Shown piece by piece: positions 25,092-57,506 of a stretch of DNA of 64,000 nucleotides (position 1 is the first letter of the stretch; each line of letters starts with the position of its first letter). The DNA comes from Microscillaceae bacterium (GTDB taxonomy: Bacteria; Bacteroidota; Bacteroidia; Cytophagales; Microscillaceae), in assembly GCA_011390205.1 (NCBI GenBank), contig JAABSX010000001.1, positions 124,001-188,000 of the forward strand, read 5' to 3'. Below the pieces are notes generated by a model. That model saw only the letters and a list, made by a program, of their open reading frames with translations. It had not been told where the DNA came from and did no database searches. The position numbers were made by a program, and so were the translations under genes.

Positions 25092-27272
25092 ATGAAAATC
25101 GCACTCTTCATACCGCCCCTTACCCAAATCAATACGCCTTATCCAGCTACTGCGTATCTTAAAGGTTTTCTCCAACAAACTAAATACAAAGATGTCTTTC
25201 AGGCTGATTTGGGCTTGGAGCTAATCCTTAAAATATTTACTAAATCTACTCTAAGCCAGCTTTTTGATGAAGCAGCAAGGCAAGCAAATTGCTCCCCCAA
25301 TACACAAGTCATTCTAAATCAGCGGAGAAAATATGAATTGTGTGTAGATGCCGTGATTGCTTTTTTACAAAATAAAAATCCAACTCTAGCCCACAAAATT
25401 TGCTCAGGTGATTACTTGCCTGAGGCTTCTCGTTTTGAGGCTTTACAAGAAGAGGTAGAAATGCTTTTTGGCAGTGTAGGCATCAGCGATAAAGCCAAAA
25501 TGCTGTGTACCTTGTTTCTCGAAGACATCGGAGATTTGATTATTGAGTGTATTTGCCCTTACTTTGGATTTAGTCGCTATGCCGAAGATATAGCACGCTC
25601 CGCTACTTCTTTTGATCCGATTCATCAGCAATTAACTGCACCCAATAATAGCCTTGATGCTTTGCTTTGGGAAGTTTTTGAAAAACATATCATAAGAGAA
25701 AAGCCTGATGTAGTGTGTTTTACAGTTCCTTTTCCAGGGAATCTTTATGGGGCTCTTAAGTGTGGGCAATACCTCAAGCTAAACTATCCTCATATCAAAA
25801 TTATGATGGGTGGCGGATTTCCCAATACCGAATTGAGAAGTTTGACTGAGCCGAGAGTATTTGATTTTACAGATTTTATCACCTTAGACGATGGTGAAAA
25901 ACCTTTGCTGAATATCCTTGAATATTTAGAAAACAAAAGAGAAATCCAACAGCTCAAAAGAACATTCATCCGTCAAAATAATCAAGTAGTATATGTCAAT
26001 GCTTGCAAAGAAGCGGACATTGCTCATCGCCATTCTGCTACACCTGATTACAGTGGCTTGTTATTGAATCAATACATTTCCATTTTAGAAATGGCAAATC
26101 CTATGCACCGCCTTTGGAGTGACGGACGCTGGAACAAACTCACTGTTGCACACGGATGTTATTGGAAAAAATGCTCTTTTTGTGATATTTCTCTAGATTA
26201 TATTGGGCGTTATGAGCCGACTTCTGCCAAAAAATTAGCCGATAAGATGGAAGAAATCATTGCTCAAACTGGCACAAATGGCTTTCATTTTGTAGATGAA
26301 GCTGCTCCGCCACTTTCTTTGCGAGATTTGGCTATTGAGCTGATTGACAGACAATTAGATGTTTCTTGGTGGACAAATATTCGCTTTGAAAAAACTTTTT
26401 CTGCTGACCTTTGCAAGCTATTGGCGGCTTCGGGCTGCATTGCCGTGACGGGTGGCTTAGAAGTAGCCTCTGACCGCTTGCTCACAATGATGGAAAAAGG
26501 GGTGACAGTCCAGCAAGTGAGCCAAGTCGCCAATCATTTTACCCAAGCAGGCATTATGGTACACGCCTATTTGATGTATGGCTTCCCGACTCAGAGTGCA
26601 CAAGAAACCATTGATTCTCTGGAAGTGGTGCGGCAATTATTTGAAAATGGGGTGCTGCAATCTGGCTTTTGGCATCGATTCTCGATGACTGCCCACAGCC
26701 CTGTTGGTTTAAACCCCGCACTTTATCAGGTCGTCAAAGTCGGGCCAGAAGACGGTACATTTGCCAATAATGACCTCATTCACGAAGACCCCAAAGGCTG
26801 TAATCACGATTTGTTTGCCGAAGGGCTGCGTAAATCTTTGTATAATTTTATGCTAGACAACTGCCTAGATTGGTCAGTAAACCAGTGGTTTGATTTTGAA
26901 GTACCCAAGACTACACTTTCGCCTCAGTTGATTCAAAGTTATCTGGAAGACTACGAAGAGGATGATAGTTTAAAACTAAAATATCGCTTGATTTGGTTGG
27001 GAAATATGCCTCATTTCTTACCACAAAACAAAAATGTCAAAGTAAATTTTGATACACCGATAGGACTTATCCATACCAAAACGGATGCTAAAACTGCAGA
27101 GTATTTACACAACTACTTGAAAAACAACCATTTACTTTCTAAAACGCTGATTACTTTCGCTGATTTCTTACAAGAGTATACTGCACATACAGAGCATCCT
27201 CAAGAATTATTGCTCGGCTCTGATACTTGGGCAGCCCTGCGACAAAATGGATTATTGTTGATACGGTTTTAA
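25092..27272 (+). CDS. B12-binding-domain-type radical SAM protein with CX4CX2C motif
   Basis: A 726-residue radical SAM enzyme. The part before residue 330 looks like a Rossmann cobalamin-binding-like region (VVCFTVPFPGNLYGAL, IKIMMGGGFPNTE, DFITLDDGEKPL). The radical SAM core follows at about 345-590. Its iron-sulfur motif reads HGCYWKKCSFCD with Cys at 356, 361 and 364, that is CX4CX2C where most radical SAM enzymes have CX3CX2C. Other core markers are there (GFHFVDEAAPP, and the GGLEVASDRLL block). No DxHxxG B12-binding motif is evident, so B12 use is doubtful. The substrate is unknown. It lies 102 bp before a Pif1-like helicase gene. Confidence 0.82.
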   Translation: MKIALFIPPLTQINTPYPATAYLKGFLQQTKYKDVFQADLGLELILKIFTKSTLSQLFDEAARQANCSPNTQVILNQRRKYELCVDAVIAFLQNKNPTLAHKICSGDYLPEASRFEALQEEVEMLFGSVGISDKAKMLCTLFLEDIGDLIIECICPYFGFSRYAEDIARSATSFDPIHQQLTAPNNSLDALLWEVFEKHIIREKPDVVCFTVPFPGNLYGALKCGQYLKLNYPHIKIMMGGGFPNTELRSLTEPRVFDFTDFITLDDGEKPLLNILEYLENKREIQQLKRTFIRQNNQVVYVNACKEADIAHRHSATPDYSGLLLNQYISILEMANPMHRLWSDGRWNKLTVAHGCYWKKCSFCDISLDYIGRYEPTSAKKLADKMEEIIAQTGTNGFHFVDEAAPPLSLRDLAIELIDRQLDVSWWTNIRFEKTFSADLCKLLAASGCIAVTGGLEVASDRLLTMMEKGVTVQQVSQVANHFTQAGIMVHAYLMYGFPTQSAQETIDSLEVVRQLFENGVLQSGFWHRFSMTAHSPVGLNPALYQVVKVGPEDGTFANNDLIHEDPKGCNHDLFAEGLRKSLYNFMLDNCLDWSVNQWFDFEVPKTTLSPQLIQSYLEDYEEDDSLKLKYRLIWLGNMPHFLPQNKNVKVNFDTPIGLIHTKTDAKTAEYLHNYLKNNHLLSKTLITFADFLQEYTAHTEHPQELLLGSDTWAALRQNGLLLIRF

Positions 27273-31053: not shown

Positions 31054-34000
31054 TTGGCAGACTCAAAAAACAATACATCACGAAACCGCAGCAACAACCC
31101 CAACTACCAGATGTCTAATCAGCTAGGCAAACTCCCACCTCAGGTGCTAGAGCTAGAAGAGGCAGTTTTGGGTGCGCTGATGATTGAGAGTGATGCACTT
31201 AATAAGGTCATTGATGTCTTGCGTCCCGAGACTTTTTACAAAGTAGCGCATCAGGAGATTTACCAAGCTATTTTTGAATTATTCTCCGAGTCTGAGCCTA
31301 TTGACATGCTCACCGTCTCACAGCAGCTCCGCAAGAAGGGTAAATTAGAGCTCGCTGGAGGGCCTACTTACATCATGCGGATGACCACCAGTGTAAACTC
31401 CGCCGCCAATATAGAGTACCACGCACGCATCATCACTGAGCAAGCCATCAAGCGTGAGCTAATTTCTATTGCCTCTGAAATTCACAAAGATGCCTTTGAA
31501 GACAGTACGGATGTATTTGAGATGCTGGACTCGGCAGAGCAAAAGTTGTTTCAAATATCGGAAAGTAATATTCGTAAAAATTTTACGATGATGTCGCCTT
31601 TAGTGCAGCAAGCCATCAAAGAAATAGAATCTCGAAAAGACCTCAAAGATGGGCTTACGGGAATCCCTACGGGGCTGACAGCCCTAGACCGCATGACAGC
31701 AGGCTGGCAAAAATCTGACCTTGTCATCTTGGCAGCAAGGCCAGGCATGGGCAAATGCCTAGGCAAAGGCACAAAAGTATTGATGTATGATGGGAGGCTC
31801 AAAAAAGTAGAAGACATACAAATAGGTGAGCAATTAATGGGTGATGACAGTACGCCTCGCAGGGTGCTTTCATTGGCAAGAGGCATTGAGAAAATGTACT
31901 GGATACGTCAGAACAAAGGCATTGATTACCGTGTCAATGAAAGCCATATCCTCAGCCTAAGAAGAAGTAGAAATGAAGGAAAACACCAGCACAGCGAGGT
32001 GATGGATATTTCGTTGAAAGAATACCTTGAAAAGTCAGATAAATTTAAGTCTAACTACAAAGGCTTTAAAGTGGCCGTTGCTTTTCCTGAGCAATACACC
32101 AGCATAGACCCTTACTTTTTAGGATTGTGGCTAGGAGATGGGAGTGCAAGTGATGTACGCATTGCTACCACAAACACCGAAATCGTCGATTACCTCGAAG
32201 AATACGCTCAGGAGCAGTCATTGACTCTAAAAGTATATCAGGCAACAGACAAAGAAAATTCTTCGGGAAAGGCACTTCAAAGTGAGTTGAGAAAATTAAA
32301 TCTTCTAAGTAATAAACACATTCCACAAAACTACCTTACCAACAGTGAAGCCAAAAGATTGGCATTGTTGGCAGGTTTGCTAGACTCAGACAGGTACTAT
32401 GCCCCCGATTCAAATGGCTACGAAATCACACTCAAAAGCCAAGCACTTGCCCAGCAGGTGAAGTTTCTAGCCGACACATTGGGTTTTCGCACTTCTCTCC
32501 ACTCAAAAATGGCTACCATCAAAACCATTGGCTATGAATGTGAGGCATTTAGTGTATGTATTTATGGGGATATTGACAAAATCCCTACCCGTTTGGAACG
32601 AAAAAAAGCACGTGGCTGGGAAATCCCTCAAAGCTGGCAACACACTGGAATCCAAGTAATCTATGACAAAATAGACCAATACTACGGCTTTGTGATTGAT
32701 GGCAATCATAGATTTTTACTGGAAGACATGACCGTAACCCATAATACTGCTTTCTCCCTCTCTGTAGTCCGCAATGCTGCCGTTGATTTTGGGCATCCCG
32801 TGGCGTTTTTTTCCTTGGAGATGTCAGAGATGCAGCTCGTCAATCGTCTTATCTCTGCCGAAACTGAGCTAGAAAGTGATAAAATTAAAAGAGGAAACCT
32901 TGCCGAACACGAGTGGGCACAACTCTACCATAGAACAAGTAAAATCAGCGAAGCCCCTATTTTTATTGATGATACTCCAGGGCTTTCGGTGCTGGAGCTG
33001 CGGGCAAAATGCCGAAGACTCAAAGCACAGCATGATATTCAGCTCATCATCGTGGATTATCTCCAGCTCATGACCGCCAATGTAGGCAAAGGAGGGCAAG
33101 GAAACCGTGAGCAAGAAATTGCCTTGATTTCACGCAGTTTGAAAAACATCGCCAAAGAACTCAACGTACCTGTCATCGCACTCTCACAGCTTAGCCGTGC
33201 CGTAGAAACCCGAGGCGGAGACAAACGCCCGCAGTTGAGTGATTTGAGGGAATCGGGATGTATTACAGGGGATAGCCTTATTTTGAATAGTGAAACTGGC
33301 GAGCTAATTCCTATCAAAGAATTGGCGGAAAGACAAGCACAAATACCTTTTGCATGTGCCGCAGTAGATGGGCAGCTAAAAGTAAAGTCTCATTCATTGG
33401 TCAAGGCTTTTTACTCAGGCAAAAAGCAGGTATTTGAACTCATAACCCGCACTGGCAGAAAAATAAAAGCAAGTGCCAATCATCCTTTTTTAAAACTCAA
33501 TGGCTGGACTCGCCTAGATGCACTCCATATAGGAGATAATATCGCCATCCCTCGCAAAATTAACATTACCCACCCAAGCAATCCACTTACAGATGATGAG
33601 CTGATTTTGTTGGCACATTTGCTGGGAGATGGCTGTACAGAACTGCCAAGAGATATTTTTAAAAGTGATACGAATAAAATAGCTCTTTTTATCAGACACC
33701 TCTGGGCGACTGGTGGGAATATTTCTTGGAAAAAGATGGCAGATAGAAAAGATTCTGGAGCCATTTATTACGCATCTTCTAGTCGTCAGCTTTGCGAGCA
33801 GCTACAGCACTTGTTGCTCAGGCTAGATATTTTGGCCACGATTCTGGCCAAACCCTCTCACAAAGGCCATCGAGATATGTACTATTTAAAAATAGACGGG
33901 GTAGAAAATCAAATTAAATTCCTCGAGAAAGTAGGTTGCCATGGCGAAAGAGGAAAGATAATTCCTGAATTGCTTGCGGCTCTCTATCAAATTAAGGGCA

Positions 34001-34656
34001 ATCCTAATGATGATGTAATCCCCAAAGAAGCTTGGGAGCGCATCATCAAGCCATTTAAAGAAATACAGAAAATCACTTGGAGAAATTTTGCCTCAGAGTT
34101 AGGAGTGGCATACAACAGTGCTGGATTGTTCAAGCACGAAATCTCGAGGATACGTATGCAGCAAATTTCTCATGTATTGCCTTTAGCCCTGCTGAATCAT
34201 CTGGCAGAATCTGACGTGCTTTGGGATGAAATCATCGCAATCAATCCTCTTGGAGAAGAAGATGTCTATGATGCTACCGTAGATGAAGTACATAACTTTG
34301 TGGCAAATGATATTATACTTCACAACAGCATAGAGCAAGATGCCGACATCGTATTGTTTCTTTATCGCCCTGAGTATTACGGCATTACGCAAGATTTAGA
34401 AGGAAACCCCACCAAAGACGTAGGAGAAGTCATCATAGCCAAGCACCGAAACGGCTCGCTGGGAGATGTCAAGCTGAAATTTATAGGCAAATATACCAAG
34501 TTTACCAATCTGGAAAATGAAGGATTTAATTTCGGGGGAGATGCTCCCAAAGGGATGATTACACTTTCTAGCAAAGTAAACGAACGCCCTTCTAACCCAG
34601 ACACTGGAAGCAACGGCGGAGGAGGCTTGCCCCCCACCGACGAGCCGCCCTTCTAA
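31054..34656 (+). CDS. dnaB: replicative DNA helicase DnaB with two inteins
   Basis: The 1200-codon frame codes for a DnaB host protein of about 514 residues interrupted by two inteins. Host parts: an N-terminal domain (PPQVLELEEAVLGALMIES), the RecA-like core with Walker A ARPGMGK-T split by intein 1, FFSLEMS, the Walker B strand LIIVDYLQLM, IALSQLSRAVE, and SDLRESG-S split by intein 2, then SIEQDADIVLFLYRPEYY. After both splice events the ATPase is complete. The frame starts with TTG (31054), with stop TGA just upstream at 30994; the first ATG in frame is 31111 (residue 20). The short leader from the promoter favours TTG, but ATG cannot be excluded. The C-terminus ends in a Gly/Pro-rich tail. 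Confidence 0.95.
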   Translation: MADSKNNTSRNRSNNPNYQMSNQLGKLPPQVLELEEAVLGALMIESDALNKVIDVLRPETFYKVAHQEIYQAIFELFSESEPIDMLTVSQQLRKKGKLELAGGPTYIMRMTTSVNSAANIEYHARIITEQAIKRELISIASEIHKDAFEDSTDVFEMLDSAEQKLFQISESNIRKNFTMMSPLVQQAIKEIESRKDLKDGLTGIPTGLTALDRMTAGWQKSDLVILAARPGMGKCLGKGTKVLMYDGRLKKVEDIQIGEQLMGDDSTPRRVLSLARGIEKMYWIRQNKGIDYRVNESHILSLRRSRNEGKHQHSEVMDISLKEYLEKSDKFKSNYKGFKVAVAFPEQYTSIDPYFLGLWLGDGSASDVRIATTNTEIVDYLEEYAQEQSLTLKVYQATDKENSSGKALQSELRKLNLLSNKHIPQNYLTNSEAKRLALLAGLLDSDRYYAPDSNGYEITLKSQALAQQVKFLADTLGFRTSLHSKMATIKTIGYECEAFSVCIYGDIDKIPTRLERKKARGWEIPQSWQHTGIQVIYDKIDQYYGFVIDGNHRFLLEDMTVTHNTAFSLSVVRNAAVDFGHPVAFFSLEMSEMQLVNRLISAETELESDKIKRGNLAEHEWAQLYHRTSKISEAPIFIDDTPGLSVLELRAKCRRLKAQHDIQLIIVDYLQLMTANVGKGGQGNREQEIALISRSLKNIAKELNVPVIALSQLSRAVETRGGDKRPQLSDLRESGCITGDSLILNSETGELIPIKELAERQAQIPFACAAVDGQLKVKSHSLVKAFYSGKKQVFELITRTGRKIKASANHPFLKLNGWTRLDALHIGDNIAIPRKINITHPSNPLTDDELILLAHLLGDGCTELPRDIFKSDTNKIALFIRHLWATGGNISWKKMADRKDSGAIYYASSSRQLCEQLQHLLLRLDILATILAKPSHKGHRDMYYLKIDGVENQIKFLEKVGCHGERGKIIPELLAALYQIKGNPNDDVIPKEAWERIIKPFKEIQKITWRNFASELGVAYNSAGLFKHEISRIRMQQISHVLPLALLNHLAESDVLWDEIIAINPLGEEDVYDATVDEVHNFVANDIILHNSIEQDADIVLFLYRPEYYGITQDLEGNPTKDVGEVIIAKHRNGSLGDVKLKFIGKYTKFTNLENEGFNFGGDAPKGMITLSSKVNERPSNPDTGSNGGGGLPPTDEPPF
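31756..32745 (+). other. DnaB intein 1 (330 aa) in the Walker A loop
   Basis: Residues 235-564 of the precursor. It begins with Cys (CLGKGTKVLMYDG), ends with the splice motif VTHN, and is followed by Thr as first C-extein residue. It sits exactly between Lys and Thr of the P-loop GMGK-T, so the host ATPase is dead until splicing. Splicing block B is NESHILSL. It carries a dodecapeptide (LAGLIDADG-type) homing endonuclease: FLGLWLGDGSA and LLAGLLDSD, both with their catalytic Asp. The end block GNHRFLLEDMTVTHN is typical of inteins placed in P-loops. Confidence 0.92.
33259..34326 (+). other. DnaB intein 2 (356 aa) at the RESG/SIEQ site
   Basis: Residues 736-1091 of the precursor. The start CITGDSLILNSETG and end HNFVANDIILHN closely resemble the Synechocystis DnaB intein, which uses the same insertion point. 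The next extein residue is Ser. Block B reads TRTGRKIKASANHPFLKL. The endonuclease region has LLAHLLGDG with its Asp, but the second motif reads LWATGG where relatives have LWATDG. The second catalytic acid is therefore missing, changeable by one base (GAT to GGT, codon 33712-33714), so cleavage is probably lost while splicing should be intact. Confidence 0.92.
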
Positions 34657-53655: not shown

Positions 53656-54030
53656 TTATGCAATTTTTTCTTTTTTGAACCCATAGGCACAGTGTCGGCA
53701 GCCATTGCCACAGCAATGCCCTCTGAGAAGGTGATAATATTCTGTAAAAACCCAATAGCCATTCTCTATATAATAATGTGTACCTGCTTCTAAAAGATGG
53801 CTTTGCTTGGGGAAATCTTGTGATTCGGCACGGCTGACTAGGTTTTGAAGCTCCACAAGGCATTTTTTGCACAGGCAATCATACTGGGTTTTGGAGAGGA
53901 ATGTTTTGGTATAGGCATTTAGTGCCACTTCTGAGCATTGGCAGTTGGCTACATCGCCCACTTTGCACTCAAAAATAGCCTCACAACGAGGGCAAGATTT
54001 GGGTTCGTGCTTGGAGATATTCATATTCAT
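53656..54030 (-). CDS. Cys-rich CWC protein fused to a DUF5522-like tail
   Basis: A 124-residue protein in two parts. Residues 1-65 match the small Cys-rich CWC type (SCPRCEAIFECK, NCQC, CLCKKC). Residues 75-124 match a DUF5522 tail (GTHYYIENGYWVFTEYYHLLRG, then CCGNGCRHCAYGF). In many Bacteroidota these are two neighbouring genes; here they are one. The 10-11 Cys in CxxC and CC groups suggest one or two zinc or iron sites. Function is unknown. It probably shares a transcript with no neighbour, since a hairpin separates it from the btuG-like gene. Confidence 0.75.
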   Translation of the reverse strand: MNMNISKHEPKSCPRCEAIFECKVGDVANCQCSEVALNAYTKTFLSKTQYDCLCKKCLVELQNLVSRAESQDFPKQSHLLEAGTHYYIENGYWVFTEYYHLLRGHCCGNGCRHCAYGFKKEKIA

Positions 54031-54049
54031 ATTTTTAAGTCATTAGAGA

Positions 54050-54087
54050 ATAGACTTTCCAAACCCTCTAAAGCTTGGAAAGTCTAT
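54050..54087. terminator. hairpin after the btuG-like gene
   Basis: A perfect 11-bp stem ATAGACTTTCC (54050-54060) with GGAAAGTCTAT (54077-54087), seven bases past the stop codon in the minus direction. The T run is short and broken. Confidence 0.5.
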
Positions 54088-54093
54088 CACAAT

Positions 54094-55197
54094 TTATTTC
54101 CTAAACAAAAAGCCATTGGGCCCTCTGCCAGCCGCAAGCGTGTCTAGAGCCGTACCGTCAAAATCAAAACGCATGACCACACCATTTCCTTGAAAAGCTT
54201 TGCTATCTCCTACATAAAGAATATCCGAGACAGGGTCTATGCCCAAGCCATAAAGGTTGTTTCCTGAGATAATCGCCTCAGTAGGTGCTGCTGTGGCGGT
54301 GATGTCTAAAGAATATACTGCCCCTGTAGAAGGATTAAAACCTGCAGAAGACAAGTAATACAAGGTGCTTCCGTCACCATTTAAAACCATTTTTTCATTA
54401 AATCCGCTGCTCTGAATGCCCGAAATCGTGGCTTCTACAGTATTGGTATTGGGGTTAATTCTGATTAAGTAACCACTTGTGCAGATGACCCAAAGCTTGC
54501 CATTGCGGTCTATGAGCATGCGGTCAGGGCCTTGTTCTACAGTGATGGGTGTTTCAAATTCATCATTGCTTGTGTTTAGCACAGCGATTTGGTTACTCCC
54601 CACCAGTGAAATATAGATTTTATTGCCAATTGCCAAAAGATGCTGAGGTTGTGCAGCAAGGCTTATTTTGGTGTCAATGCTAAAATTACTTAAATTAATT
54701 TTCACCAAAGAAGGGTCATCATAGACAAATGTAGTAAAATTAAAAGTTCCCCAGTTGCTGACATAGCCTTGACTGCCCACTGCCGCAAAGCTAAAAGGCG
54801 TAGCAAACTGCACTGCAGCCCCGAAGGTAGGTTTGATGGTGGCCACAGAGCTAAAATCCTCTTTTTTGAAGACTTCAACCTTGTCGGTACTGTTGCAGAC
54901 AGCAAAGTAATTTCCGTTGTATTCTATTATATTTTGGATACTTGCCGCAAATGGAAAACCATTGGCAGCCGCAAACACACTCAAATTGATGCCATTGTTG
55001 CTCGAGTTAAAAGTACTGATGGTGCCGTCTGCACTGTTAAAGTTTCCTTCATTGATGATGATGACATCGGCTTCTCTATTGATAGGGGTAACATCACTCT
55101 CGCCGCAGGCAGCCATCAAAGCAAGCAAAGAAACAAAGAATAGCGTCTTTAACTTATTGATAAAGAGATTGTTGTGTAAAAGAGTAGTTTTTTTCAT
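54094..55197 (-). CDS. BtuG-like beta-propeller lipoprotein
   Basis: A 367-residue lipoprotein (lipobox MAAC, Cys31) with a seven-bladed propeller-like repeat, for example IINEGNFNSADGTISTFNS, YVSNWGTF, LAIGNKIYISLVGSN, and DPVSDILYVGDSKAFQGNG. This DUF5074-type propeller next to a BtuB-type receptor under a cobalamin riboswitch is the layout of BtuG, a surface protein that binds B12 very tightly in Bacteroides. So a B12-capture role is likely, though not proven by sequence. It follows btuB by 51 bp in the same direction and shares its riboswitch. Confidence 0.75.
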   Translation of the reverse strand: MKKTTLLHNNLFINKLKTLFFVSLLALMAACGESDVTPINREADVIIINEGNFNSADGTISTFNSSNNGINLSVFAAANGFPFAASIQNIIEYNGNYFAVCNSTDKVEVFKKEDFSSVATIKPTFGAAVQFATPFSFAAVGSQGYVSNWGTFNFTTFVYDDPSLVKINLSNFSIDTKISLAAQPQHLLAIGNKIYISLVGSNQIAVLNTSNDEFETPITVEQGPDRMLIDRNGKLWVICTSGYLIRINPNTNTVEATISGIQSSGFNEKMVLNGDGSTLYYLSSAGFNPSTGAVYSLDITATAAPTEAIISGNNLYGLGIDPVSDILYVGDSKAFQGNGVVMRFDFDGTALDTLAAGRGPNGFLFRK

Positions 55198-55248
55198 AGT
55201 TATATGATTTGAGATTTAAAAAATTAAGAATGAATGATTTATAAAAAA

Positions 55249-57141
55249 TTAAAGCTGATAAGAAAGTCTTATTTGATAATTTCTACCAGGCATTGCCCTA
55301 AAGATATAATTCTGATAATCAGTATTGAAGAGATTATTGAGCGAAAGGTCTAAACCAAAAAAATGTGTTTTGACTTGGATAGATTTGCCTAGGGTAAGAT
55401 TGGCGAGCATAAAACCAGGAATAGACGTAACCAATCCCTCTATATTGTCTAGTGTCTCATAGCGAAGGGCAGTATATTGCAGATTAATCCTGCCCGAAAA
55501 CCCCGCATAAGTTGAGTGAGTATAAAGATTGAAGCGATGCAAAGGCGTATAAGGAAGTTGATTGTTTTGATAAATTCCCTCTGTTTTGAGCAATGACTGC
55601 GTAAAAGCATAATTTCCTCCTGCTTGCCATCGCCATTTTGGGGTATTAAATCCCATTTTAAATCCTAGCTCTACACCTTGTCCGTTTACTTTCCGCACAT
55701 TGTCGGGCGACCAAATGCCACTGCCATCAGGTTGCCAGAGTATCCAATCATCTACCCAAAGGCGGTAATAGGTAAGCTCAGACTCGAGGAAAAAGCCATT
55801 GTTTTCAAACTGATAAGTCATTCCACCTTCTGCATTCCAGCCCGATTCGGGGAGGAGATTAGGATTACCGCCAGGCTGCCAGAATCTATCATTGAAGGTA
55901 GGCACACGGTAGCTTTTGGCTGCAAGGGCTTTGAAGGTCAGTGTGTGATTTGGAGCTTTCCAAAGCAAATATTCTGCACCAAGTGAAGGCACAAAAGGCA
56001 CTTGAAAACCATCTACCCAAGTTTGCTGCACATTCAGACTGAGTGCGAACAAGGGGTTGATTTGGTGCCGCAGAGAAGCAAATGCAGAAGGGCGATTTTC
56101 TTGAGGATTTTCTTGAAGGTTAGAAGATTGGGCACGGGTATGGTACCAGTTCGCACCTGCTCGGAGATGTACTTTGTCGCCAAGCTGATGTTCGTATGCC
56201 AGTATGGCTGCATATTTTTGGGCATTGACTTGGCTCTCTCCATTGCTTTGGTAGATTTGCTCATCTTGAATATAAGCCCCTTTGATGCTGAGATTTCCCC
56301 AAGATTTTTGGAGAGAATAATCTCCCACGATGCGTATATTCTCATCCAAAAGCCGCTCTCGTGCCTGTGTATTTCCTTCTACGGGCTGTATCTGACGGTC
56401 ATTGTGACTATACCAAGCATTGAGAGAAAGGGTACTTTGGGCAGAAAACTGGTAATTTAGCTGCTGCAAAAAGCCATAATTTTGCACTTTTGCATTGTTT
56501 TGGATTTGTCTTTGGTTGCGGCTGTCTGTGTAAGGAAAATCGTTTTCTATCTCAAAATAATACAGTTTAGTTTTGCCAGAAAATTTCCCTGTTTGGTAGC
56601 CTATTTGTGTGCCTCCCGCAGAGCGTCCGAAGCTGCCGATTTCAGTATAAGCCTCTATGGAGAAGGGAGATTTAGGTGTGTTTTCTTCTAATAAAATACT
56701 GCCTCCTACGGCATCAGAGCCATACAAAGCACTTGCTGCCCCGAATTGTAATCTGACTTGGTCAGTGGCGAATACGGGCAAAGTACCCAAATCACTCTGC
56801 CCCAAAGTAGGGGAATTGATGTTGATGCCTTGCCACAAAAGCGCTGTATGACTTGCCCCTGTGCCTCTGAAAGCCACTGAGCCTAGCTGCCCATTGCCAT
56901 AGGTTTTGATATAGATAGCACTTTCTGCCTGAAGCAAATCTGCTAGATTACTGCTTGCGTACTGTTTAAGTGCTTGGCTATTAAGCGTTTGGACTTTGCT
57001 GCCTGCTAAGAAACGCTCAGATAAACGGCCTATAATTTCTACTTCTTCGAGCTGAATATGCTGCAAAGTATCTTCTTGAGCAAGTGCATGAGAACTTATG
57101 AAAAGCCCCAATACAATGGCTCTCAACCACGGAAAAAACAT
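55249..57141 (-). CDS. btuB: BtuB-type TonB-dependent cobalamin receptor
   Basis: A 630-residue outer membrane receptor. Signal peptide to about residue 21 (SHALA), then a plug domain with LQHIQLEEVEIIGRLSERF, LADLLQAESAIYIKTYGNGQ and SVAFRGTGASHTALLWQGIN, followed by a 22-strand barrel ending with an aromatic-rich strand (IRLSYQL). The TonB box lies near EEVEIIG. The riboswitch in its leader assigns the substrate as cobalamin or another corrinoid. Length is that of BtuB, shorter than SusC-type receptors. The inner membrane importer btuCDF is not in the window. Confidence 0.92.
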   Translation of the reverse strand: MFFPWLRAIVLGLFISSHALAQEDTLQHIQLEEVEIIGRLSERFLAGSKVQTLNSQALKQYASSNLADLLQAESAIYIKTYGNGQLGSVAFRGTGASHTALLWQGININSPTLGQSDLGTLPVFATDQVRLQFGAASALYGSDAVGGSILLEENTPKSPFSIEAYTEIGSFGRSAGGTQIGYQTGKFSGKTKLYYFEIENDFPYTDSRNQRQIQNNAKVQNYGFLQQLNYQFSAQSTLSLNAWYSHNDRQIQPVEGNTQARERLLDENIRIVGDYSLQKSWGNLSIKGAYIQDEQIYQSNGESQVNAQKYAAILAYEHQLGDKVHLRAGANWYHTRAQSSNLQENPQENRPSAFASLRHQINPLFALSLNVQQTWVDGFQVPFVPSLGAEYLLWKAPNHTLTFKALAAKSYRVPTFNDRFWQPGGNPNLLPESGWNAEGGMTYQFENNGFFLESELTYYRLWVDDWILWQPDGSGIWSPDNVRKVNGQGVELGFKMGFNTPKWRWQAGGNYAFTQSLLKTEGIYQNNQLPYTPLHRFNLYTHSTYAGFSGRINLQYTALRYETLDNIEGLVTSIPGFMLANLTLGKSIQVKTHFFGLDLSLNNLFNTDYQNYIFRAMPGRNYQIRLSYQL

Positions 57142-57171
57142 GTGTATGTCTATTTTAGTATGGTTTGATGC

Positions 57172-57185
57172 CTTTCACCCGAAAG
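57172..57185 (-). promoter_or_regulatory. small hairpin between riboswitch and btuB
   Basis: CTTTC (57172-57176 on plus) pairs with GAAAG (57181-57185), loop ACCC. It lies just after the aptamer and 31 bp before the start codon and may be the expression platform that the riboswitch controls. Confidence 0.4.
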
Positions 57186-57199
57186 CTCAAACAAATGTG

Positions 57200-57370
57200 G
57201 ACTGGCAGGTCTCCTGACTTACTGGGTTTATTATCGCCTTCCCACCCTTTTTATGGGGCAGTGGCTGGGATGATAATAAATGATTTTTGGTGAAATACCA
57301 AAAATCAAAAAACAGTTTACAGTTGCGGGGACAGTTTTGGTTTTGCACCAAATTCCCTTTTAAAATCTTA
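57200..57370 (-). promoter_or_regulatory. cobalamin riboswitch
   Basis: On the minus strand the conserved elements appear in order: AAAAGGGAA, GGTGCAAAACC, CTGTCCCCGCAACTGT, GCCACTG, GGGAAGGC and the B12 box AGTAAGTCAGGAGACCTGCC. It precedes btuB by about 60 nt. When B12 is bound it should shut off btuB and the btuG-like gene. A box TACCTTCG (57403-57410 on plus), one mismatch from the -7 consensus, lies just before it. Confidence 0.95.
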
Positions 57371-57506
57371 GTCTGATTAGACTTAGATTACCAATTCAGA
57401 GGCGAAGGTAGTATTTTTTTTGAATCTAAAAAAATAAGTAAGTGGTTTTTTAGATTGTATGTAATAAAACTTAGCTTTGCAGCCTATCACGAATACAAGA
57501 CAAAAA

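Follow-up and report, generated by a model that had tools for sequence, protein, structure and literature searches.

CX4CX2C spacing is uniform in a widespread, unnamed family of cobalamin-type radical SAM proteins found at a Microscillaceae locus

The question raised by this locus is whether a radical S-adenosylmethionine (SAM) protein with its cluster cysteines spaced CX4CX2C, in place of the standard CX3CX2C, is the product of an error, an oddity or a member of a family, and what such a protein might do. The gene lies at positions 25092–27272 (+) of the window, which is the whole 64,000-nucleotide stretch analysed here (positions 124,001 to 188,000 of contig JAABSX010000001.1, from the Microscillaceae bacterium assembly GCA_011390205.1). 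It is an intact open reading frame (ORF) running from ATG to stop, and encodes 726 aa. An earlier note on this DNA had called it a radical SAM protein, and by sequence the product is a member of that superfamily, as PF04055 (Radical_SAM) is matched at 42.9 bits (gathering cut-off 29.5) over residues 352–511. The motif, LTVAHGCYWKKCSFCDISL, includes cysteines 356, 361 and 364 (C356-YWKK-C361-SF-C364; 26157–26183, +). It was read in both the DNA and the translation, and the extra residue that the earlier note had pointed out is real. We conclude that the gene represents a widespread, patchily spread and unnamed family of a known kind, which falls under every NCBIfam cut-off. Our best reading of its function, which we consider evenly poised between right and wrong, is a cobalamin-type (class B) radical SAM C-methyltransferase, the substrate of which may, more tentatively, be a peptide or protein gripped by a C-terminal tail where that tail is present. 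The tail is predicted to resemble the recognition elements (RREs) of enzymes acting on ribosomally synthesised and post-translationally modified peptides (RiPPs).

When a family profile was run over ORFs of at least 250 aa in 162 loci, with a score above 500 defining a full-length member, 145 full-length homologues were obtained, and 135 of them have distinct core stretches. All 145 have the CX4CX2C spacing, in the pattern GCYW-x-x-C-x-F-C. As HGCYWKKC was one of the six patterns used in the contig search that supplied 80 of these loci (the best 80 of 586), and all 80 contain it, they are a biased set and not independent evidence for the motif. However, searches by protein similarity, with no motif in the query, supplied the other 65 homologues (61 from whole genomes and four from plasmids), and these also have CX4CX2C without exception. 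In an alignment of 71 family sequences the three cysteines are invariant (71/71), and the family core includes 93 invariant columns. A local insertion, frameshift or assembly error, which the earlier note had allowed for in case homologues showed CX3CX2C, would have to explain the agreement of all 145 homologues, including the 65 from motif-free searches. That explanation is ruled out, and we give it next to no weight.

The standard spacing was seen only among distant relatives. Seventeen outside relatives, out of a larger number of distant matches listed, were compared. The nine best-scoring (122.6–152.2 bits; L153–L158, L160, L161 and L141) have CX4CX2C, in the forms GCFWRRCSFC, GCYWRRCSFC, GCYWRRCTFC, GCQYAQCLFC and TCYYGQCAFC, while the eight lower-scoring ones (31.8–92.2 bits; L159, L025–L030 and L162) have CX3CX2C. 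A tree built by a quick method from 57 selected rows, with a midpoint root and the motif columns left in, is compatible with a single switch between the two spacings. As long branches meet in this tree and most of the relatives are very distant, its support for a single change is weak. Judged from these sequences, a larger branch of cobalamin-type radical SAM enzymes has inherited CX4CX2C as a stable trait. Four of the outside relatives with this spacing (L153, L154, L155 and L157, in genomes G498, G506, G554 and G494) are large radical SAM proteins in ORFs of 863–904 aa, L153 carrying TPR repeats at its N terminus. First-look candidates numbered 46 in G498 and 27 in G506, which may represent many paralogues.

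The motif itself is not new. It is documented in GenD1, GenK and Sis14, C-methyltransferases for gentamicin and sisomicin (PMC4340712), and we compared it with ours through the published description. According to the same source, GenD1 was purified and reconstituted, with Fe-S absorbance near 415 nm, and C-methylated gentamicin A in a reaction that required cobalamin and a viologen and formed 5'-deoxyadenosine. GenD1 (~77 kDa; PMC4340712) is also close in size to the 726-aa protein and, like GenK and Sis14, is a cobalamin radical SAM enzyme. The three differ from it in sitting in antibiotic gene clusters. Elsewhere, CX7CX2C is described in polytheonamide (PoyC-type) and bottromycin methyltransferases (PMC5682303), and departures from the standard cysteine spacing are termed 'not unusual' (PMC8992657). 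The spacing does differ from CX3CX2C, but the weight that the earlier note placed on it was overstated. In our judgement the three cysteines almost certainly hold a [4Fe-4S] cluster.

The architecture of the protein points to the same class of enzyme. An AlphaFold2 model built with the 71 family sequences has a mean predicted local distance difference test score (pLDDT) of 90.8 and a predicted template modelling score (pTM) of 0.91. In the model, a cobalamin-type Rossmann domain (residues ~1–300; 25092–25991, +), identified from the predicted secondary structure, structural matches to OxsB and TsrM that start at residue 1 and a partial match to PF02310, precedes a radical SAM barrel (residues ~343–590; 26118–26861, +), which is matched structurally throughout. 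The Rossmann part is interrupted by ~160 mainly helical residues (40–203; 25209–25700, +). When the model was compared with known structures using VIA-align, the top row was OxsB (5ul4; Z 21.8, root mean square deviation 2.9, 398 residues aligned), followed by AprD4 (Z 20.5), MgmA (19.7), TsrM (19.6), CysS (18.0), TokK (17.4) and MiaB (16.7), with the matches extending over residues ~1–600. Foldseek concurs, with E-values of 6.3e-14 for OxsB and 7.0e-14 for TsrM. The protein shares this overall fold with OxsB, TsrM, TokK, CysS and MgmA (Z 17.4–21.8) but is only 10–17% identical to them, and they act on other substrates. TsrM, unlike the 726-aa protein, has CX3CX2C (PMC8992657). On the model, residues 1–600 have the Rossmann-then-barrel fold of cobalamin radical SAM enzymes.

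The earlier note had described a B12-like N-terminal fold that lacks a DxHxxG motif. Both parts of that description hold, as the string is absent from the 726-aa protein. It occurs in just three of the 145 homologue ORFs and in none of them inside the B12-like domain, one being late (position 564) and two lying upstream of the aligned start of the protein. The note had called cofactor use unclear on that account. In this class the lower face of cobalamin is met by arginine in TsrM, by asparagine or water in OxsB and by tryptophan in TokK (PMC8992657), so the absence of DxHxxG is expected. Within the Rossmann part, GGG..NTELR and LD.GE are invariant across the family alignment.

The genome appears, from its sequence, to take up B12. 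In the window, a cobalamin riboswitch (57187–57410, −; RF00174, 104 bits against a gathering cut-off of 31.5), not adjacent to the radical SAM gene, is followed by a gene for a BtuB-like TonB-dependent receptor (55249–57141, −) with TonB-B12 (TIGR01779) as its best NCBIfam match (108.9 bits, under the cut-off of 599.7). With genes for a DUF5074 protein and for a small DUF5522 protein rich in cysteine, these form a likely B12 uptake operon (53656–57410, −). Among proteins with PF02310, to which our survey of B12 users was confined, the whole genome yielded only two matches, methylmalonyl-CoA mutase and, under the cut-off, the radical SAM protein itself. The MetH activation domain was not matched in this genome (0/1; 96.9% complete), and was matched in 7 of 14 controls. 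As the riboswitch is present in 288 of the 296 genomes sampled from the phylum, it shows a B12 supply and not a specific link to the radical SAM gene, and it was dropped as a discriminating co-occurrence marker. An Rfam search of 10 homologue loci returned only two glycine riboswitches, both in L067. Taking the fold and the B12 uptake genes together, we think it very probable that the protein uses cobalamin.

Comparison with named families returned scores under the cut-off in every case. The highest was for the PhpK-type P-methyltransferases (TIGR04479; 98.9 of 600 bits, residues 202–514), followed by rSAM_ocin_1 (TIGR03975; 82.1 of 281.85), a family of RiPP C-methyltransferases to which we take the PoyC-like enzymes to belong, and ApyD (60.8 of 750). 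No phosphonate gene turned up when 20 upstream neighbours of family genes were scanned. The alignment with rSAM_ocin_1 spans both the B12-like and the radical SAM parts, but the score is far under the cut-off and no RiPP cluster was found. A non-canonical cysteine spacing is shared with the PoyC and bottromycin enzymes, although the one reported for the PoyC type is CX7CX2C (PMC5682303). These scores bear on whether a methyl group is transferred at all. The protein could instead use its cobalamin-type fold for ring contraction, cyclisation or thioether formation, as in OxsB, BchE and ThnL. OxsB is indeed the top structural row, BchE scores 50.1 bits and non-methylating reactions are known in the class (PMC13331322). 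However, the best family scores are those of methyltransferases, and methylations outnumber every other kind of reaction in the class (PMC11659888). We consider a non-methylating reaction improbable, and methyl transfer somewhat favoured.

The case for a peptide or protein substrate comes from the C-terminal domain (residues 612–726; 26925–27269, +), a predicted winged helix. Folded alone, using 51 sequences, it gave a pLDDT of 91.3 and a pTM of 0.80, with strands at 21–24, 30–34, 37–44 and 47–54, helices at 55–67, 78–89, 93–97 and 100–108 (domain numbering) and a final strand. Strands thus precede helices in the model, as they do in RREs, for which the strict definition is the order strand-strand-strand-helix-helix-helix (PMC12710340, 2025). 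The same source describes fusions of RRE-like folds to PF08007 JmjC proteins, and gives a rate of ~75% false positives, lacking the RRE order, for the inspected sample of its Foldseek set. With VIA-align, 30 rows had a Z of at least 4.0. Fifteen of these come from RiPP enzymes or from RRE/PqqD proteins and 11 from the ribosomal oxygenases NO66/YcfD, with three rickettsial protein lysine methyltransferases and CmlS making up the remainder. The RiPP-type rows include ThcOx (Z 6.6), McbBCD (6.3), TbtB (6.3), the PbtF RRE (6.0), PqqD (4.4) and 5why (4.0), together with MibB, MadB, TbiB1, TigE and a lasso B1 protein, some proteins having two entries. Only the structure title of 8t19 carries an RRE label, and the other RRE and RiPP class labels are ones that we presume to apply. 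As this list does not cover every winged-helix family, absence from it is uninformative. The likeness to RREs such as those of PbtF, PqqD and ThcOx lies in the strands-then-helices order and the first-ranked structural matches. The domain differs from them in having additional strands and an additional short helix, in showing no Pfam or profile similarity to them and in having no conserved precursor nearby. The modelled RRE-like domain gives a hint that the substrate is a peptide or a protein, for which, in our judgement, the chances are even.

Under the reading as a C-methyltransferase, cysteines 356, 361 and 364 would hold an ordinary [4Fe-4S] cluster at which SAM is bound and cleaved, and the Rossmann domain would hold cobalamin base-off without a histidine ligand. 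The 5'-deoxyadenosyl radical would abstract a hydrogen from the substrate, and the substrate radical would then receive a methyl group from methylcobalamin, so that an unactivated carbon is C-methylated. A second SAM would re-methylate cob(I)alamin. More tentatively, the RRE-like domain, where present, may grip the peptide or protein substrate.

Several results weigh against this reading, and the first of them concern cobalamin. PF02310 (B12-binding) reaches 26.1 bits over residues 194–258, or 29 bits in a six-frame search, where the cut-off is 32.1, and a sequence search for solved structures gave no useful match (best E-values 0.017 and 0.086). AprD4, which has a cobalamin-type fold and is not known to use cobalamin, matches the model no worse than the methyltransferases do. 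The protein might likewise be a radical SAM enzyme with a B12-like fold and no cobalamin. That would leave the two invariant motifs in the Rossmann part to be explained, along with the retention of a B12 riboswitch and a BtuB-like receptor in a genome with only one other B12-binding-domain match, and we regard it as quite improbable.

The remaining points concern the tail. Of the 70 aligned homologues, 50 have it while the other 20 lack it and end in tails of 7–20 residues, and its mean column identity is just 33%, against the 93 invariant columns of the core. All of its structural matches have Z below 8 (maximum 6.6), and Foldseek returned nothing significant for it (best E-value 0.055). The 23 Pfam families that any of the 51 members matched, at E-values up to 1, do not include PqqD/RRE, and an hhalign comparison with 18 PqqD sequences gave a probability of 0.55%, which three of 36 control families of neighbouring genes surpassed. 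Short ORFs lying up to 1.2 kb away at the 145 loci were clustered, and of the 15 largest clusters none is precursor-like and conserved across clades, each being restricted to close relatives. The enzyme might then be a cobalamin-dependent methyltransferase that, like GenD1, acts on a small molecule, a sugar or a lipid, with the C-terminal winged helix only a structural or dimer domain. Such an enzyme would suit a dispensable tail and the lack of a conserved precursor, and GenD1 and GenK, which methylate aminoglycosides, have CX4CX2C (PMC4340712). However, no recurrent biosynthetic gene set lies alongside the family gene (145 loci; 20 upstream neighbours scanned), and two RiPP maturases are among the closest NCBIfam families. 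We treat a small-molecule substrate as a serious if less likely alternative to a C-methyltransferase of peptides or proteins.

Among 134 members surveyed, the tail is absent from all 32 betaproteobacterial and all five Bdellovibrionota members, and from the single Saprospirales member. Of the 20 named Cytophagales, 19 have it (one is cut), as do nine of 13 named Flavobacteriales (three are short and one is cut) and all 49 other members from the window's order and class. The Hydrogenophaga genome G382, which has the short form of the gene, contains no PF05402 match at an E-value of 0.001, and hence a PqqD-type partner is not needed there. Side evidence for a peptide substrate comes from L161, an outside relative with CX4CX2C. 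A PqqD gene is found ~1.8 kb from it, in a RiPP-like cluster that also encodes a transglutaminase-like protein, HPr-kinase-like proteins and proteins with sulfotransferase domains. At L196 (G386:C93, 604–9298), a RiPP-like cluster combines a CX4CX2C radical SAM gene and PqqD with genes for a transglutaminase-like protein, two proteins resembling HPr kinase and two with sulfotransferase domains.

Neighbouring genes were called by codon usage at the 145 loci, with flanks of ~1.5 kb for those from whole-genome searches and up to 6 kb for those from the contig search. No neighbour holds one position across clades, and the few neighbour clusters that do span clades (e.g. clusters 2, 3, 5 and 16) vary in position. 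The helicase next to the window's gene, to which the earlier note had drawn attention, does not recur beside the family gene. Its ORF, cut by the locus end, forms a cluster of one and groups with no other neighbour, including those in the ~1.5 kb flanks of the two closest homologues, and a functional link to it was rejected. Further along the window, at 31054–34656 (+), is a gene for a DnaB helicase with two intein-like insertions (Hom_end_hint/Hom_end and Intein_splicing/LAGLIDADG_3). Across the homologue loci, 20 of the 90 nearest upstream same-strand genes called were scanned with Pfam and are mutually unrelated; they include bVLRF1, QueA, DUF455, SpoIIE, serine dehydratase, glycine cleavage P-protein, CcmF/CcmH and GGDEF genes among others, and two had no match. 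In four loci with Flavobacteriales or Chryseobacterium labels (L048, L050, L052 and L059), a gene for a 350-aa protein of one cluster is found 7–47 nt upstream of the family gene; the only one scanned, in L048, is the queuosine synthesis gene queA. In one genome, a second B12-binding radical SAM gene, of the DUF4080 type, abuts the family gene (L017, 3525–4991, −).

Full-length members were found in 24 of 96 relatives, the window's own genome included (36 matched at an E-value of 0.001), and in 53 of 296 genomes sampled from its phylum, again including its own (59 matched at 1e-15, six being distant relatives). In the phylum of Hydrogenophaga G382, 11 of 299 genomes, counting G382 itself, have one (of 25 matched, 14 are distant relatives). 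The gene is patchy: a full-length member is missing from all 14 other genomes of the window's own family, while two genomes of another family encode proteins 73–75% identical to that in the window. In the 57-row tree, sequences from Bdellovibrionota and betaproteobacteria are nested within Bacteroidota, which suggests horizontal transfer of the family gene. Named holders include Flammeovirga, Reichenbachiella, Hydrogenophaga, Acidovorax and Roseateles, and bins with the gene are labelled Bdellovibrionales, Planctomycetaceae and Myxococcales. Plasmid records with a member come from Aureibacter, Parabacteroides, Ideonella and Vitreoscilla, a fifth plasmid match (Rhizobium) being a distant relative, and viral contigs gave a single distant match (L162, with CX3CX2C). 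One contig filed as Bifidobacterium breve (L031) encodes a protein that is 71% identical and groups with Bacteroidota in the tree, and it is probably misbinned. In L023 and L024 (G071 and G026), the match falls in two pieces within one open frame, apparently due to an extra stretch near query residues 280–295.

Literature searches, in which subscription journals were thinly covered, returned no description of this family and no assigned substrate. A more specific proposal, which we put forward as speculative and expect would more often prove wrong than right, is that the protein is an orphan C-methyltransferase of the cobalamin radical SAM class, spread horizontally and equipped with an RRE-like domain of its own, which in Bacteroidota would methylate an unactivated carbon in a protein with a housekeeping role or in a peptide encoded at a distance. 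It would then be a bacterial counterpart of the protein methylases MgmA and Mmp10, outside methanogens and RiPP clusters. The RRE-like tail is the part of the protein most worth following. Should it bind a peptide, ordinary bacteria would use cobalamin-dependent methylation of proteins far more commonly than is known.

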